Positions 1-27,325 of a DNA stretch of 42,021 nucleotides are shown in pieces. Source of the stretch: Minisyncoccota bacterium (lineage in GTDB: Bacteria; Patescibacteriota; Minisyncoccia; Phycocordibacterales; UBA1006); contig JAJOIF010000003.1 in assembly GCA_021209525.1 (NCBI GenBank), positions 1-42,021 on the forward strand, in the 5' to 3' direction. Position numbers and translations under genes: made by a program. The notes under the pieces were generated by a model, which did not search any database, was not told the DNA's origin, and worked only from the letters and a program-made list of their open reading frames with translations. The first letter of the stretch is position 1, and every line of letters begins with the position of its first letter.

Positions 1-121
1 CTCGTTTCGCGCTAGCGCACTCACTACGAGCGCATTCGCTCGGCCCCGCCGTTCGCGCCGTACTCGCTTTGCTCCGTGCGGCATTGCTCACTTTTTTCGA
101 CCCCTGCTTCGGGATACAATC
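1..121 (-). repeat. tRNA-tail-derived repeat element behind tRNA-Lys (truncated by window edge)
   Basis: Read on the minus strand, after the tRNA-Lys terminator comes GATTGTATCCCGAAGCAGGG and then GTCGAA. This is a reverse-complement copy of the tRNA-Lys T-loop, T-stem, acceptor 3' strand and TACAATC flank, with GAA where the T-stem/acceptor junction should be. It runs into a body (GTGAGCAATGCCGCACGGAG...) that also starts the element behind tRNA-Arg at 23107. A later piece, CGGCGGGGCCGAGCGAA, is shared with the element behind tRNA-His. The far end lies outside the window. Confidence 0.7.
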
Positions 122-147
122 AAAAAACCCAAAGCTCTCGCTTTGAG
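122..147 (-). terminator. tRNA-Lys terminator hairpin
   Basis: On the minus strand CTCAAAGC-gaga-GCTTTGGG is followed by TTTTTT. It sits about 15 bases after the tRNA 3' end and forms the tip of a longer inverted repeat whose arms are the tRNA tail and its reverse-complement copy. Confidence 0.75.
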
Positions 148-162
148 TTTTAAGATTGTATG

Positions 163-235
163 TCCCTCCGGCAGGGATCGAACCTGCGACCATCAGCTTA
201 AAAGGCTGCTGCTCTACCGGCTGAGCTACAGAGGG
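163..235 (-). tRNA. tRNA-Lys (anticodon UUU)
   Basis: Complete cloverleaf on the minus strand. The acceptor stem is CCCTCTG/CGGAGGG, with TA at positions 8-9, a GCTCAG D-arm start, anticodon loop CTTTTAA with TTT as anticodon, and a T-arm with TTCGATC loop. The discriminator base is A. The 3' CCA is not encoded (CAT follows), so a CCA-adding enzyme is needed. Confidence 0.95.
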
Positions 236-490: not shown

Positions 491-1700
491 ATTTTGATTT
501 TAAACTTTCAAAATTAAAAAAATCACCAAGAGTGTTGGTACTTTTTATTTGAAAGTTATTTTCTCCTTCTCCATATTCACTCCAATATGGATGAAGGGTT
601 TTAATTTCTGACCATTTATCCGAAGATAAATGAAGAATTTCTTCATCAACTAAATTCCAATTTTCTGGTAATTCAGTTGATTTTAATTGAGCAACCATTT
701 TCACTCTGTGGGAATTCCAGAGTGTCCATGTTTGTGCCTCTAATTGAGACACTAAAAGCGCTCCTTCACGATTAAGAGAATAATCTCTTATCGTGAATGG
801 GGTTTTTTTTGCCCACACCTGGCTTGAGTACATCGCCTGGTAGACATAATATATGTCGAACCTGGGATCACTCTGAACAAATTTCAAGCCCTCAGCTGAA
901 ACTATGGTCCAGCAGGTGTGGCTATTATCTCCAATAATGTTCTCGCCAATAGTGGAGATAGTCATCCCCTCAGTTGGCTCAAAACAATCATAGCCAGCTC
1001 TTTCAGCGGCTATTTTTGTTTTTATGACCCTTGGATGCTGTTGGGTCATACCTCCTGAGGAGATACATTCCCCAGCCGGGAGCGCTTTCCGCTCCAAACT
1101 TCCTTTAAACCAAGAGAATTCATATTCTACTATGAATTCTCGGCCAGATTTTTTTTCCCATTCCTTTTTCGTAATGGGAATGAGATCTGTCTCGTAGAGA
1201 CATGGAAAATTTGTTTCGCACCCTCCACAGGTGCCAAAGTTAACCCACGACTCTTTTCGTGGCTCTTTTGGTCGCTCCGGATATGGCCCTTCAAAATTGA
1301 AGAGGCTCCACCCGTTTGATCCTTGGTGAGCCCTACGGTAGGTTTCACCGAAGGCAGAGGATATTAATAATCCTCCGCTTGTTTCAAAAAATTCTGATTC
1401 ACTCAATATGGCGCTAGCGCCTTTTGAGTTTTTTATCGCAATATTTTTAATATTGCGACGGAACGCAGCCGTGCGTTCCAATAAAATTTTTTCCTCTTGT
1501 GAAAGAGGCCGGGGTTCTATTCCCCATGTTTTTTTTGCCCACTCAAACTCACGCTCTCCTGAGCGTAAAGTTTTTAAAATTTTTCCGGGGTTTCCGCCTT
1601 CTTCGGCGTACTCCCACCCTTCACGCTGCGTATAATACACAGCATGTTTATGAGTTTCAGAAAAAATTAAAAAATTGCCATTCTGAGTTTTTAGTCTCAT
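489..1700 (-). CDS. Hypothetical protein, 404 aa, next to the giant RNA
   Basis: I do not recognise this protein. The start is the ATG at 1700 (MRLKTQNGNF), which has one of the few plausible Shine-Dalgarno sequences in the window (AAGGTGAGG) just upstream; a TTG start at 1721 is also open. It has no signal peptide or membrane segment and is rich in Trp, Glu, Lys and Ser. A cysteine patch, FGTCGGCETNFPC, lies near the middle and could bind a metal. It stands alone between stacked terminators and the hairpin-rich region 1740-2890, which starts only 40 bases upstream and is probably transcribed divergently. Its isolation suggests accessory DNA. The open frame is secure; function is unknown. Confidence 0.75.
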   Translation of the reverse strand: MRLKTQNGNFLIFSETHKHAVYYTQREGWEYAEEGGNPGKILKTLRSGEREFEWAKKTWGIEPRPLSQEEKILLERTAAFRRNIKNIAIKNSKGASAILSESEFFETSGGLLISSAFGETYRRAHQGSNGWSLFNFEGPYPERPKEPRKESWVNFGTCGGCETNFPCLYETDLIPITKKEWEKKSGREFIVEYEFSWFKGSLERKALPAGECISSGGMTQQHPRVIKTKIAAERAGYDCFEPTEGMTISTIGENIIGDNSHTCWTIVSAEGLKFVQSDPRFDIYYVYQAMYSSQVWAKKTPFTIRDYSLNREGALLVSQLEAQTWTLWNSHRVKMVAQLKSTELPENWNLVDEEILHLSSDKWSEIKTLHPYWSEYGEGENNFQIKSTNTLGDFFNFESLKSK

Positions 1701-1726
1701 GACCTCACCTTGCCTGCTCAAGGGTT

Positions 1727-1732
1727 TATAAT
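1727..1732 (+). promoter_or_regulatory. Possible -10 box for the structured RNA
   Basis: TATAAT at 1727-1732 would start transcription at about 1739, exactly where the run of hairpins begins. The -35 side is weak (TTGCCT is too close). The AT-rich palindrome TATAATTTTATA could equally serve the minus-strand gene that starts at 1700. Confidence 0.35.
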
Positions 1733-1739
1733 TTTATAC

Positions 1740-2890
1740 AGGATATTCCGAGAACATACTCGGCATCAGCTTCTTACCTATCCGACACCGTACCTGGCAT
1801 GGTACATTTTTTCGGATTAATTTTACTGGTGATACTAGCGCAATGCGCGTTCTTCAGTAAGAGCATTGAAAACACAAAGATTTATGTACTCAATGCTCCT
1901 ACTGAGAAAAGACGAACCCCAATCACTCTCTCACATACATGAGAAAGTGAATAAGAGTGGTATCTCTATCAACAACCCATTGATAAGATACCGAGTATCC
2001 CTCTTCATTTTCTGTCACCACGACAGCTGGCGAAGAGGGAACCAGACCCATTATGTTGTGTGCGTACTATTGTTCGGCACAGAACATCATTTTCCTCCCG
2101 AGGATGCGGGAGACGAACGCTAGCAAGATCTTTGTCTTCTAGCGAAATCCAGCAACGTATTTGTTGCGGGTTTCGCTACAAAACTTCTCTTTCTTTTTTT
2201 GCTTGGGGCAAATTGAGAAAGATCAATCTTACCAACTATAGTCACGCCCGGAAGCGTGATTATTTTTGATATAGTAGGCATAGTATTCATATACTTCATT
2301 ACAAAGAATCTGAACACTATGCCTGCTATATCTGCGATATTACTACCGCATATCTACACCTATCTGATCGAGCAGATAAAATACTTATTACCTATAGTAG
2401 AGAGAGGTTCATTATATGAGCCTCTCACCATCTACATAAAGACAGCATGAGGCTCTTAAAACAAAAAGTAAGAGTATCTCATGTGCGCTATCATAGGCGA
2501 TAGATGTAGATATACGGTGACCATGAACCCCTCTTTTCATGATCATCGCTTTATGCAAACTACCATATATCTCCTAACGTCACTTCCTGACCTCTTCGGA
2601 TATATATATGTCTTGTGTTATGTTGTTGTTAATGTATGTGCATATACGATACGAACCTTTTTATACAATTATATAGGTGTGTCGTATTTTGTTTTCTCTC
2701 TCTTTTTTGTTACAAAGAGATTTCTAGATATCAAGAAGGTTAGCCTTGGTATCCAGCGGATCTCTTTAGAACCGGTTTATTCCTTCGGTCGTCACTCAAG
2801 CGGTCACTTGACCTTCGTGCGATGCTTGTCCTGAGTAGGAACCCCGTTCCAATTGGGTATACTCAGCGCGGGAAATGGAACGTCTATTGA
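1740..2890 (+). ncRNA. Candidate giant hairpin-rich structured RNA (about 1.15 kb)
   Basis: This gene-free stretch folds into about 20 consecutive local stems. Examples: CCGAG/CTCGG (1748-1763); ATCCG..GTACC/GGTAC..CGGAT (1780-1817); TTACTG..GCGC/GCGC..CAGTAA (1823-1860); GAGCATTGA/TCAATGCTC (1861-1898); GGTATC/GATACC (1959-1992); CCCTCTTC..TGTC/GACA..GAAGAGGG (1999-2039); CTCCCG/CGGGAG (2095-2112); a 15-bp stem at 2141-2177; a 17-bp stem 2268-2284/2316-2332; an 11-bp stem with a 3-base loop at 2402-2426; AAAGAGAT/ATCTCTTT (2714-2767). A probable 3' pseudoknot pairs CTGAGTA/TACTCAG and CGTTCC/GGAACG (2831-2882). Imperfect pairs in five stems are G-U on the plus strand and A-C on the minus strand, and one stem goes the other way, so plus is favoured. 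It does not match RNase P, tmRNA or a group II intron domain V that I can recall. It could be an ornate large RNA of the GOLLD/ROOL/OLE type, but I cannot assign a class. Confidence 0.6.
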
Positions 2891-3034
2891 TTGTGTTTGA
2901 AAGAACCTCTCTCTATACATTTCTGTATTTTTGTTCAAGAACATTGTACCATTATAAAACACTTTTGTCAAAGAATAAAAAACAATACATAATTACAAAA
3001 TAACCTTATTTTATAATACTTTTTTAATAAAAAC

Positions 3035-3063
3035 TTGCATTTTGTAACATAATTTGTTACAAT
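3035..3063 (+). promoter_or_regulatory. Promoter with overlapping palindromic operator of the TrmB-like regulator
   Basis: TTGCAT, a 17-base spacer and TACAAT end 6 bases before the ATG at 3070, so the mRNA should be leaderless. A perfect inverted repeat, TTGTAAC-n7-GTTACAA (3042-3062), fills the spacer and -10 box. This is the usual layout of an autorepressor operator. Confidence 0.7.
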
Positions 3064-3069
3064 ATATAC

Positions 3070-3879
3070 ATGCAAAAAAATACACAAACACCTGAAAAGC
3101 AAACATTTACATATTTTGAAACACTTTTTGACTTAGGATTTCACGCAGATGAAGCAAAAATTTATGAATGGTTACTTAAAAATAATCAAGCAAAGGCATC
3201 TGCTATTGCTGTAGGAACGGGTATTTCTCGTGTGCTTACCTATAGAGGTCTTGATAAGCTTGTTGAAAAGGGAATTATTGAAAAAATTGATGAAGATGGA
3301 TCGCCTGCATATTTTGAAGCAAAACACCCGTCGCATCTTTCTTCTGTGTTAGAAAAACAAAAACGTACCCTTGCAAAGGCGGAAATAGAATTGCAACGCG
3401 ATCTGGGAAAAATGGCATCTGATTTCAATCTTGCAACAGGCAAACCAAATGTGCAGTTTTTTGAAGGATTGGAGGGAGTGGAAAAAATGCTCCACGACTC
3501 TCTCACAACAACCCAAGAGATTTATACCTATGCTGATTTTGATGCCGTGCAGCAATATTTTGGAGACCTTAATGCACGCTATGTACACAAAAGACGCCAA
3601 TTACAAATACATAAAAAGGCACTCATTACACACACATCAACATCACAAGAGTACTTCAAGAATTATTTCAAAGATATTACTGATATTCGGTTTATTCCAC
3701 ATAATAAGCAACCATTTGCTGCTGTTGCTGAGATCTATGATAACAAGGTGTCCTACATCACAATCTCAGAAAACGGTTTAATTGGGGTATTGATTGAAGA
3801 TGTTCATATTGCAAATATGCACCGTGTTGTATTTGAAGCATTATGGCATCAATCAGAATCAATTTCAGAAGAGCGATAA
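3070..3879 (+). CDS. TrmB-family transcriptional regulator
   Basis: This 269-aa protein begins with a winged helix-turn-helix of the TrmB type: LFDLGFHADEAKIYEWLL, then ASAIAVGTGISRVLTYRGLDKLVEKGIIEK (about residues 15-75). A charged helix and a C-terminal effector-type region follow (FFEGLEGVEKMLHDSL..., about 120-260). TrmB-like proteins are DNA-binding regulators, originally of sugar uptake genes in archaea, and are frequent in CPR genomes. No transporter gene adjoins it, so the signal is unknown. A perfect palindrome over its own promoter suggests autoregulation. Its last 31 bases overlap, tail to tail, the end of the minus-strand gene 3849-5960. Confidence 0.85.
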   Translation: MQKNTQTPEKQTFTYFETLFDLGFHADEAKIYEWLLKNNQAKASAIAVGTGISRVLTYRGLDKLVEKGIIEKIDEDGSPAYFEAKHPSHLSSVLEKQKRTLAKAEIELQRDLGKMASDFNLATGKPNVQFFEGLEGVEKMLHDSLTTTQEIYTYADFDAVQQYFGDLNARYVHKRRQLQIHKKALITHTSTSQEYFKNYFKDITDIRFIPHNKQPFAAVAEIYDNKVSYITISENGLIGVLIEDVHIANMHRVVFEALWHQSESISEER

Positions 3880-5960
3880 TCATCTATATTGACGGATTCA
3901 TATACACAATACCAACCGTCTTTGTTTTTAAAATAGCGCGACAATACATATCCTTGATCTTTAAGAAAATGAAAATCATGCTGATGGTCTGCTCTATAAA
4001 TACGTAATGTTTCTGGCGTAGGGATGTCGCCGTGCGCCATTTGAGCAATTTCAAGAGGGGAGAGTTTTTTAGATACTAAATCCTCATTTTTATTTTTATT
4101 CCAGCTTATGTGCATAATATCTATACCCTGAAAATTTTCAGACGCATGTCCCACAAAACCCATTTCTATATAGCGAGCACTGTTCATCTCTGTAGGTATG
4201 CATTTTGCGTCAAGAATATGAGACTCAGCTTCTTTGGCAAGTGATTGTGCCATAACTACCTCTCCAAGCGAGAGGCCATGCTTGTGCGGATCAACATTGA
4301 GCGCAGATGCATAAACGGTTCCGTCCTCTTTTTTTTCAAAACGTACAAAAGACTCGATTTGGTCGTCAATAGTAAAGACATAGAAATTATTTTTTTCTTC
4401 TGAATCAGATGATCCGTCAAATGACTTCATAAAAATTGATTCAAGTTCTGCATATATTTTTGGGTCGTATGCATTTTTCCAGTTTCCTTCATATATGGCG
4501 CGCATACGTTTATGATGGCCACGCTGTACGAGTTGTTGCGGGGTGTACACTGACAGATCGGCATTCTGAATATCAGAGAGCTCGTAGGTTGCCCCATATT
4601 TTCGGGCATATTTAAATGCAGAGAGTTTTGCGAAAGTTTCTGCCTGGAGTGTTGCCAAATCAGATTCAAGGTTTTGGTATATTTCATCAAGAAGGGGTGC
4701 GTCTTTTGGTATGCGTTTGTGAAAATTATTTAAAATATCAATACCTTTGTGAAAGAGTTTTGTACGGGTTTCTTCTATAATTTTTGGATTTTCTGAGATT
4801 TCTGTATTATATTGATCTGTAATAAAATCAACAATTTTTTCATTGATACGGACAAGATCAGCGTATTTTTGAAATATTTTTTGCGCTATGTTCTCAGGTA
4901 GTTTTTCGCCGATATCGAGAATCTTGTCTCCCATTTCGGGTCCGCCGTGAGCCAGAGCAAGAAAAGAAGTATAAAAATTTTGTTGATGCACTGCGCCTAT
5001 TTTTTGAGTACGCTCTATAATGGCTTTGTTTGCGTGTTTTATAAATTTAATAAATTGCATCTGGAGATCGAGGGGCATGTCATCGAGCGCAATTGAAAAG
5101 TCATCTTCTATGGATGTTTTTAATGTAGATATTACGATATCCATATAGTCTTTAATGTCAGATTGGTCAATGTCATTACCTACAAGACCGAGACTTTTTT
5201 GATCTATAGGATTACTCATTGCTTTTTGCTTAAGGGTCCAGATTTGTTTTTTAAGACGAGAAATCTCTTTGTCTATTTGTTCATTATAAGGGTCTCGTTC
5301 AAGATATTCCTTGGTTTGCACGGATCCATTTGGTTTTGTGAAGGTCTCAGAGATCCACCTGTCCGGATTTTTTAGATTATCATATATATCTATTTGTTCA
5401 TTGAGTTTTGTGTAATCACTGTAGTCCTGGGCTTCAAGTATTATCGCTTTGTCTTTAGACAGCAAAAGCATACCCCCTGTTGGGAGGAGAATTTCCCGAG
5501 GGTTTATTTTCACAGAATTCTCTTCCTCGAGAAATGATTTGTAATAACGAGCGTAATAATAGGCACCTTTCTCAGTATCTGTTTCTGTAATAAAATTCTT
5601 GAGTATTTTTTTGGCTACTTCGCCCGCCTGATGTGTATCTGCAAAATATCGTGTGGTGTATAATTTCAAAAGATCATGAAAACTCTGCCATTGTTCACGA
5701 GGGTCGACTGAGTAGAGGTGCTCTTTGAGTGGCTCGAGCATTTTTTCTATCTGCTCGTTAAAAATCTTTGATGCTTTTTCTATTGCAATATTTAGCTTTT
5801 TCGTTTCTTGGGAAAGCTCTGGTGATTCCGCATATAATATATTACTAAAGACATCAGATTCACCTTCTGATGTAATAGTTTCATACAAGTCTCTAGAAGC
5901 ATCATCTTGAAAATTATAAGAGAAGGACTTTTCTTTATTGAACCTATGGTCAGATATCAT
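3849..5960 (-). CDS. Large protein with C-terminal GNAT-like domain
   Basis: 703 aa if begun at the ATG at 5960 (MISDHRFNKEK), which lies 6 bases behind a TTGTAT-n17-TATACT promoter. An ATG at 6011 would put the promoter inside the neighbouring gene. The protein is cytosolic, helical and acidic, with coiled-coil stretches (for example KEISRLKKQIWTLKQKAM). About residues 540-645 resemble an N-acetyltransferase (GNAT) fold: a beta strand (IESFVRFEKKEDGTVYASALNVDPHK is its surrounding region), then LGEVVMAQSLAKEA, then the late motif NSARYIEMGFV. The N-terminal 500 residues are unassigned. Large GNAT-tailed proteins of this sort are common in Parcubacteria; the substrate is unknown. It is divergent from the SpoU gene, with 52 bases between the starts. 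Confidence 0.7.
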   Translation of the reverse strand: MISDHRFNKEKSFSYNFQDDASRDLYETITSEGESDVFSNILYAESPELSQETKKLNIAIEKASKIFNEQIEKMLEPLKEHLYSVDPREQWQSFHDLLKLYTTRYFADTHQAGEVAKKILKNFITETDTEKGAYYYARYYKSFLEEENSVKINPREILLPTGGMLLLSKDKAIILEAQDYSDYTKLNEQIDIYDNLKNPDRWISETFTKPNGSVQTKEYLERDPYNEQIDKEISRLKKQIWTLKQKAMSNPIDQKSLGLVGNDIDQSDIKDYMDIVISTLKTSIEDDFSIALDDMPLDLQMQFIKFIKHANKAIIERTQKIGAVHQQNFYTSFLALAHGGPEMGDKILDIGEKLPENIAQKIFQKYADLVRINEKIVDFITDQYNTEISENPKIIEETRTKLFHKGIDILNNFHKRIPKDAPLLDEIYQNLESDLATLQAETFAKLSAFKYARKYGATYELSDIQNADLSVYTPQQLVQRGHHKRMRAIYEGNWKNAYDPKIYAELESIFMKSFDGSSDSEEKNNFYVFTIDDQIESFVRFEKKEDGTVYASALNVDPHKHGLSLGEVVMAQSLAKEAESHILDAKCIPTEMNSARYIEMGFVGHASENFQGIDIMHISWNKNKNEDLVSKKLSPLEIAQMAHGDIPTPETLRIYRADHQHDFHFLKDQGYVLSRYFKNKDGWYCVYESVNIDDYRSSEIDSD

Positions 5961-22987: not shown

Positions 22988-23059
22988 CCTTCCGTAGTTC
23001 AATGGATAGAACAGGGGTCTTCTAAGCCCTTAATGTAGGTTCGATTCCTACCGGAAGGA
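22988..23059 (+). tRNA. tRNA-Arg (anticodon UCU)
   Basis: Acceptor CCTTCCG/CGGAAGG, anticodon loop CTTCTAA (TCT), T-loop TTCGATT, discriminator A followed by CT, so CCA is not encoded. A TATACT box lies about 12-18 bases upstream. Confidence 0.96.
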
Positions 23060-23071
23060 CTGATAATCTTA

Positions 23072-23100
23072 AAAACCAAAGTGTCTAACTTTGGTTTTTT
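23072..23100 (+). terminator. tRNA-Arg terminator
   Basis: AAAACCAAAG-n7-CTTTGGTTTT plus extra T. It forms the tip of a longer inverted repeat: ATAATC (23063-23068) and the tRNA tail before it are mirrored by GATTAT and the tail copy after it. Confidence 0.85.
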
Positions 23101-23106
23101 TGATTA

Positions 23107-23160
23107 TGTCCTGAAGTAGGAATCGAAGAAAGTGAGCAATGCCGCACGGAGCAGAGCACT
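23107..23160 (+). repeat. tRNA-tail-derived repeat element behind tRNA-Arg (short)
   Basis: TGTCCTGAAGTAGGAATCGAA (23107-23127, one base short of exact) is the reverse complement of the tRNA-Arg T-loop, T-stem and acceptor end, with GAA replacing the junction. The body GTGAGCAATGCCGCACGGAGC then matches the element behind tRNA-Lys (positions 1-121, opposite strand). It stops at the end of the minus-strand gene at 23169 and lacks the distal half and the closing direct tail copy. Confidence 0.75.
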
Positions 23161-25992: not shown

Positions 25993-26076
25993 GCGCGAGT
26001 GCTGGAACTGGTAGACAGGCATGGTTGAGGGCCATGTGGGAGTTATCCCGTGGAGGTTCAAGTCCTCTCTCGCGCA
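25993..26076 (+). tRNA. tRNA-Leu (anticodon GAG)
   Basis: 84 bases. Acceptor GCGCGAG/CTCGCGC, anticodon loop TTGAGGG (GAG), long variable arm as expected for Leu, T-arm GGAGG-TTCAAGT-CCTCT, discriminator A. CA but no full CCA follows. The last bases are duplicated at 26273-26299. Confidence 0.95.
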
Positions 26077-26089
26077 CATAAAACATTAT

Positions 26090-26123
26090 CTCTCAAAGCG
26101 GATGCTTTGAGAGGTTTTGTTTT
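26090..26123 (+). terminator. tRNA-Leu terminator
   Basis: CTCTCAAAGC-ggat-GCTTTGAGAG followed by GTTTTGTTTT. Confidence 0.9.
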
Positions 26124-26124
26124 A

Positions 26125-26299
26125 GTGCGAGGGGAGTGACTTGAACCAAGGACCCGCGAAGCCCGCAGACTCTGAAGCGTATGCGCAAGAGTCGAGGAAG
26201 GGTCCGTGTGGAGGTCAAGGGAGTGAGATTATTTTGAGATCGATGAGCGAAAAAATAATCCACGAGAGTGACCAAGTCCTCTCTCGCGCACATAAAACA
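26125..26299 (+). repeat. tRNA-tail-bounded repeat element behind tRNA-Leu
   Basis: The left end, GTGCGAGGGGAGTGACTTGA then ACC (26125-26147), is an imperfect reverse complement of the tRNA-Leu tail. The right end at 26273-26299 is an exact 27-base direct copy of the tail plus its downstream ACATAAAACA (26059-26085). The body carries a GACTCT/AGAGTC hairpin and a 34-base module GATTATTTT..AAAAAATAATC (26227-26260) that recurs in the tRNA-His element. No open frame in it is convincing. Confidence 0.8.
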
Positions 26300-27052: not shown

Positions 27053-27125
27053 GGTGGCTATCGTATAACGGTTATTACTCCGGTTTGTGGTACCGGTTAT
27101 CTGGGTTCGATTCCCAGTAGTCACC
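27053..27125 (+). tRNA. tRNA-His (anticodon GUG)
   Basis: It starts with the extra G(-1), then GTGGCTA pairing with TAGTCAC (one G-T pair). Position 73 is C, as required for HisRS recognition. Anticodon loop TTGTGGT (GTG), T-arm CTGGG-TTCGATT-CCCAG. CCA is not fully encoded. Confidence 0.95.
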
Positions 27126-27135
27126 CAAAAACATT

Positions 27136-27170
27136 AATCCTCAAAGCAGCGCTTTGAGGATTTTTGTTTT
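27136..27170 (+). terminator. tRNA-His terminator
   Basis: AATCCTCAAAGC-agc-GCTTTGAGGATT followed by TTTGTTTTT. Confidence 0.9.
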
Positions 27171-27171
27171 T

Positions 27172-27325
27172 GAGGTGACGAAGGAATCGAAAAAAGGGAG
27201 GCGCGAAGCCTTTTTATTCGCATCTGCGAATAAAAAGAGCCGACCGGCGGGGCCGAGCGAATGAGATTATTTTGAGCTCATTGAGCGAAAAAATAATCCA
27301 TGAGGGCGGCCGATTCCCATTGCTA
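27172..27325 (+). repeat. tRNA-tail-bounded repeat element behind tRNA-His
   Basis: The left end, GAGGTGACGAAGGAATCGAA (27172-27191), is the reverse complement of the tRNA-His tail with GAA replacing the T-stem/acceptor junction, as in the Lys and Arg elements. The body has a perfect 12-bp hairpin (CTTTTTATTCGC/GCGAATAAAAAG, 27210-27237), CGGCGGGGCCGAGCGAA shared with the Lys element, and the GATTATTTT..AAAAAATAATC module (27265-27298) shared with the Leu element. The right end CGATTCCCA (27311-27319) is a short direct copy of the tail. 27326-27461 holds no gene. Confidence 0.75.

Follow-up and report, generated by a model that had tools for sequence, protein, structure and literature searches.

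Integron cassettes form arrays of small units, some without an adjacent integrase (CALINs), in which genes carry at their 3' end a folded imperfect-palindrome site (attC) whose pairing is at the DNA level. Integrative elements of the class that targets the T-loop to the 3' end of tRNA genes leave a tail direct repeat starting in the T-loop, restore the tRNA, and occur as empty and filled alleles. Elements of the CTX phage type use XerC/D on hairpin attachment sites, and miniature transposons and REP elements moved by Y1 (HUH) transposases are short, gene-less, hairpin-rich, and multicopy. The Paceibacteria, which belong to the CPR bacteria, have tiny genomes with few recognised mobile elements. 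The units described here, which follow tRNA genes in a Paceibacteria-type genome and its order, recall each of these systems in some respect and appear to represent a type of mobile gene cassette that has not been recognised before. A literature search with incomplete journal coverage returned no description of such units.

The cassettes belong to neither integrons, integrase-bearing tRNA elements, IS110, nor IS200/IS605. They share with integron cassettes the small arrayed format, the absence of an adjacent integrase, the folded site 3' of the genes, and pairing at the DNA level. However, the platform here is a tRNA or tmRNA 3' end, there are many platforms per genome, and most units are gene-less; the arms copy the tail of the host tRNA, whereas integrons use generic R and L boxes. 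The boundaries, as judged by reading, lie in the tRNA tail copies, which start at T-loop nt 54-61, rather than in an attC R box (GTTRRRY) and attI, and the genome under study (G000) encodes no integron integrase (IntI). Relative to tRNA-targeting integrative elements, with which they share the T-loop-start repeat, the restored tRNA, and the empty and filled alleles, the units are small (about 0.15-4.5 kb), have no integrase inside, contain an extra internal inverted tail, and recur, with one body type, as tandem arrays behind many different tRNAs. Like CTX-type elements, the cassettes would rely on a host Xer acting on one folded strand of DNA, but no dif-like sites are involved as far as read and no phage genes were seen. 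Finally, they resemble miniature transposons and REP elements in their short, gene-less, hairpin-rich, multicopy form but differ in having tail direct repeats and tRNA-specific arms; the Y1 HUH transposase (PF01797) is absent from G000 and from three relatives (G007, G016, and G022).

The 42,021-nucleotide stretch of DNA that was analysed (the window) holds four of these units. The original prediction described the tail of tRNA-Arg, a terminator hairpin, and a reverse complement of the same tail as one long inverted repeat, and this order was borne out exactly. The tail of tRNA-Arg (22988-23060) occupies 23042-23060 and is followed by ATAATC, the terminator, and GATTAT (23063-23107), then by the inverted copy (23108-23125), which reads GTCCT-GAA-GTAGGAATCG with GAA opposite CGGA. 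Folded as a single DNA strand, the structure is one hairpin with a stability far above that of shuffled sequences (z -8.6). The same arrangement is found at tRNA-Lys (minus strand, 96-180) and tRNA-His (27108-27191). The features of the four units are as follows.

22988-23060, plus strand: tRNA-Arg(tct), host of the Arg unit (ARAGORN, Rfam)
23042-23060, plus strand: Arg tail, from T-loop C56 to the 3' end, the left arm of the inverted repeat
23063-23107, plus strand: ATAATC, terminator hairpin, and GATTAT, the tip of helix P2
23108-23127, plus strand: inverted copy of the Arg tail, with GAA (23113-23115) replacing the junction
23128-23157, plus strand: remnant of the Arg body (GTGAGCAATGCCGCACGGAGCAGAGC), truncated and without a direct tail copy
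162-235, minus strand: tRNA-Lys(ttt), with its tail at 162-180
115-160, minus strand: terminator hairpin of the Lys unit
96-114, minus strand: inverted tail of the Lys unit, with GAA
1-95, minus strand: body of the Lys unit, cut by the contig end
25993-26077, plus strand: tRNA-Leu(gag), with tail plus flank at 26059-26085
26120-26147, plus strand: inverted tail of the Leu(gag) unit
26148-26273, plus strand: body of the Leu(gag) unit, type 2B, ending in GAGAGTGACC
26273-26299, plus strand: direct tail copy of the Leu(gag) unit, 27 bp, identical to 26059-26085
27054-27126, plus strand: tRNA-His(gtg), with its tail at 27108-27125
27174-27191, plus strand: inverted tail of the His unit, with GAA
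27192-27310, plus strand: body of the His unit, ending in CCATGAGGGCGGC
27311-27318, plus strand: partial direct tail copy of the His unit, CGATTCCC

The Arg copy is a truncated remnant, its direct copy and the right-hand part of its body being gone. The right end of the Lys unit was found at the end of contig C14 (L047) and includes both the direct tail copy and another terminator; the direct repeat there also takes in the terminator and, seen across the contig break, spans about 70 bp. The assembly breaks within this unit (window 1-95), and contigs C1 and C14 may adjoin at it because part of the body is common to both.

A scan of all 29 tRNAs in the genome (680 kb, or 0.68 Mb, in 15 contigs), the check proposed with the original prediction, found inverted copies of the tRNA's own tail at nine: Arg-tct, Lys-ttt, Leu-gag, and His-gtg in the window, and Leu-taa, Tyr-gta, Ser-gga, Gly-tcc, and Gly-gcc. 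At each of these nine, the tRNA's own inverted copy scored at least as high as nearly every other downstream region, and the scan found no such unit at the remaining 20. Replacement of the junction between T-stem and acceptor by GAA, which had been reported as a shared mark, stands for Arg, Lys, and His and fails as a general rule: the Leu-gag, Gly, Tyr, Leu-taa, and Ser junctions differ, and in many relatives a variable small hairpin occupies the position of the GAA. Intact units carry a second, direct tail copy at their far end, which had been missed earlier; the inverted copy is thus an internal part of an element flanked by tail direct repeats. In the intact units of G000 and in many relatives, the direct copies start at T-loop nt 56/57, and at Leu-gag, Leu-taa, Ser-gga, and Gly-tcc the direct copy begins at the same T-loop base and extends at least to the tRNA end.

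With the small hairpin in place of the GAA, as in many relatives, the unit folds into a three-way junction (z -11.4) in which P1 joins the 3' strand of the T-arm to the inverted copy, P2 contains the acceptor strand and flank and is tipped by the terminator, and P3 is the small hairpin. Beyond the junction, bodies are of two types, ending in AAGATTCC or in GTGACC immediately before the tail; both can be mixed in one array (L112, L219), and the units of the window are of the second type. At tRNA-Leu(taa), a further partial copy (CTCGGCACAGAAAATA) lies about 35 bp past the direct tail copy (L003, 1620-1700), as if it were the scar of an older, deleted unit.

The design extends well beyond this genome. 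Family members carry it after tRNA-Ser, -Leu, -Gln, -His, -Asp, and -Met, and Nomura-, Taylor-, Kaiser-, and Campbellbacteria carry it after most tRNA types. Of 397 genomes of the order, 163 matched a covariance model of type 1 at E <= 1e-4, weaker matches being less secure; in a phylum-wide sample searched at a stricter cut-off, one of 380 genomes matched, itself within the same order. The cassette system is order-restricted. Among viral contigs, phages, and plasmids, the searches returned no copy of the body, and the phage matches covered the tRNA part only. One site follows a tmRNA and bears copies of the tmRNA tail; the target is therefore the T-arm/acceptor 3' end.

Both copies track the tRNA they follow. 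A same-strand tRNA lies upstream within 1.3 kb of 75 of the 95 model matches in the sequence pieces analysed (median distance 76 nt), and several of the remaining matches are near contig ends or inside arrays. Across 74 unique sites, the T-stem strand (5 bases) of the site's own tRNA was present in the inverted copy at 46 and in the direct copy at 54, compared with means of 4.5 (maximum 12) and 6.9 (maximum 16), respectively, in 2000 shuffles. This permutation confirms the earlier claim that the inverted copies fit their own tRNA, and the claim holds for the direct copies as well. The tRNA-Met units of G016 and G018 have arms in common and different bodies; together with the near-identical bodies found at different tails, this indicates that arms stay with the locus while bodies move or are exchanged. 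A retained overlap dinucleotide at nt 57-58 was considered and set aside as too weak, since 13 GA-type sites but only one of seven AA-type sites retain it in direct orientation.

Mobility is supported by insertion alleles within one genus. The site at tRNA-Leu(caa) by lysS is filled in G007 and G014 and empty in G011, where a simple terminator follows directly, and in G017, where the flank is plain. At tRNA-Asp, likewise, G016 and G018 carry a unit, and the site is empty in G011, G017, G009, and G015. Because the second tail copy is followed by a terminator in filled sites, the unit went in downstream of the tRNA but ahead of its terminator. Units also stack in tandem arrays in which each cassette ends in a folded site, as in integrons (L115, L039, L112, L219, and L106), and bodies at different tRNAs of one genome can be 94-98% identical while the tails differ. 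Of the meanings originally offered for the inverted tail, a non-autonomous mobile element at tRNA tails is the one supported by these direct repeats, alleles, arrays, and shared bodies. Median body identities are about equal within a genome and between genomes at the same tRNA; the notion that bodies simply follow the genome was rejected on this account, and mobility appears intermittent since bodies are generally not more alike within a genome than across genomes at the same tRNA. No excised circle was seen, and no unit with a foreign tail was caught.

Some units carry genes between the tail and the folded site, with the folded site 3' of the genes; gene cargo is documented at few loci. The array at tRNA-Asn (L115) encodes a methyltransferase of 310 aa and a membrane-type ORF of 199 aa alongside units that lack genes; CCTACCCGGGGAGC marks both the tRNA and the boundaries of the units. 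At a second locus (L106), the repeats that bound two gene-carrying units are identical. At L244, tRNA-Gln is separated by an LMW phosphatase and a 136-aa ORF from a site whose arms match Gln. At L359, five co-directional ORFs follow tRNA-Ser and precede a site whose arms match Ser; the direct tail copy there has decayed. This operon (1067-5349, minus strand) encodes an AbiU2 HEPN protein, an SDH-type protease, a DUF5677 protein, and two proteins without assignment, and it looks like an uncharacterised defence cassette.

No recombinase could be tied to the cassettes, and the units read contain no integrase between the tail copies. G000 has a single Xer-type tyrosine recombinase (244 bits to XerC), which scores 135.8 bits against the integron integrase model TIGR02249, below the cut-off of 265, and one large serine recombinase that is not adjacent to any listed tRNA. 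A DEDD transposase of the bridge-RNA-guided IS110/IS1111 type (PF02371) is absent from 17 of 18 genomes, G000 included, and serine recombinases (PF00239) are absent from the site-rich genomes G022, G033, G035, and G414. Y1 transposase, IS110, serine recombinase, and a dedicated tyrosine integrase were accordingly rejected as mobiliser, none being consistently present. By comparison, PF00589 searches found an Xer-like gene in nearly all tested genomes, mostly one per genome, and Xer acting in trans is the most economical candidate. Serine recombinases do occur beside tRNAs in some relatives. In G007, which carries cassettes as well, a large serine recombinase of 499 aa has C-terminal codons that extend into the tRNA-Asn tail, marking a different, larger tRNA 3'-end element (L368; C4:94628-98089). 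In G099 (C9; L270 and L369), a serine recombinase ORF starts about 100 nt after tRNA-Leu(tag), beside cassette-bearing tRNAs, and the near-tRNA sequence seems to recur inverted at the contig end.

We consider these units probably to be an integron-like, order-restricted cassette system, in which the inverted tail is one arm of an attachment site formed by a folded DNA strand and the 3' ends of tRNAs and tmRNA serve as the platform. A unit runs from the tRNA tail through optional genes, the terminator hairpin of P2, the small hairpin P3 or GAA, the inverted T-arm, and the body hairpins to the direct tail copy; the base of P2 pairs with the 3' strand of the acceptor, the inverted T-arm with the tail (P1), and the body forms P4 and P5 or the type 2 hairpins. 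Sitting between the tRNA and its native terminator, the unit supplies its own terminator and leaves the tRNA intact. The site may be active when one DNA strand folds on itself, with exchange at the T-loop carried out by a recombinase supplied in trans, either Xer or the enzyme of another element. Our best guess is that hairpin-templated copying, during insertion or later, fits the inverted arm to each tRNA, and that the arm afterwards stays in place as bodies are swapped. More tentatively, the units may constitute a new class of mobile cassette with platforms at tRNAs and tmRNA throughout the genome, whose folded single-strand site is re-templated from the target at each insertion, such that one type can colonise any tRNA without damage. 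If true, order-wide cassettes behind tRNA genes would explain how Paceibacteria gain and trade accessory, possibly defence, genes, and they pose the question of how a mobile element rewrites its own attachment arm to fit each new target.

Alternatively, the units could be remnants of conventional integrative elements, with the direct repeats made by a phage or island integrase and the inverted tail a by-product of quasipalindrome (template-switch) correction that lengthened the terminator hairpin into the tRNA. Such elements typically leave direct repeats of the tail, tRNA tails are indeed targets of large serine integrases in these bacteria (tRNA-Asn of G007), the inverted copies at Ser-gga in G000 and at Asp in G018 are nearly spacer-free as correction would give, and the tRNA-Met units of G016 and G018 share arms and not bodies. 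We nonetheless regard this origin as unlikely: the P3 spacer hairpin, the multi-helix body, and the covariation persist order-wide, the units have no integrase, and arrays repeat the whole architecture.

The pairing itself bears on two further readings, both framed around RNA. Among 19 sites, 13 pairs showed double changes (68 in total), and one-sided changes occurred in 2 of 399 cells. Across 72 distinct sites, G.T accounted for 18 of 1413 pairs (1.3%) and A.C for 10, whereas 84 tRNAs of the same loci had 114 G.T among 1874 pairs (6.1%; p 2e-13); the comparison is limited to G.T because ARAGORN cannot show A.C in tRNAs, and the low G.U figure is indicative, the alignment being fitted to the model and its rows related. 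Tail and inverted arm likewise form 320 Watson-Crick pairs, 6 G.T, and 2 A.C. This pattern, of the same indicative weight, is consistent with folded DNA, not RNA, as the substrate of selection or of templated mutation. It disfavors a structured RNA, or a 3'-processing or termination module, acting on the tRNA readthrough transcript, and with it the original suggestion of an RNA that competes with tRNA folding on readthrough. The units do always lie downstream of tRNAs and co-oriented with them, include a terminator hairpin, and are strongly structured, but A.C mismatches are about as rare as G.T, Rfam gives no plausible match outside the tRNA, empty orthologous sites are common, and genes can intervene between tRNA and structure, which together make an RNA module improbable. 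A tRNA-primed retroelement, with the inverted tail as primer-binding site, is the least credible of these accounts. The inverted tail is complementary to the 3' part of the tRNA, as that account and the original primer-binding suggestion assume, yet the pairing is kept at the DNA level and runs several nucleotides beyond the tRNA end into the genomic flank rather than stopping at the complement of CCA, and the TGG that would complement CCA was not seen in the units read.

Finally, the P4 hairpin is capped by a 20-base motif, CACGGAGCRAAGCGAGTACG, that also occurs elsewhere. In Nocardioides and relatives (L058-L176), many gene starts are closely preceded by a hairpin that it caps, and the 3' strand of this hairpin often holds the ATGAG start. 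The motif is present in Clostridia too (L086, L131, and L167); these occurrences are unrelated to tRNAs.
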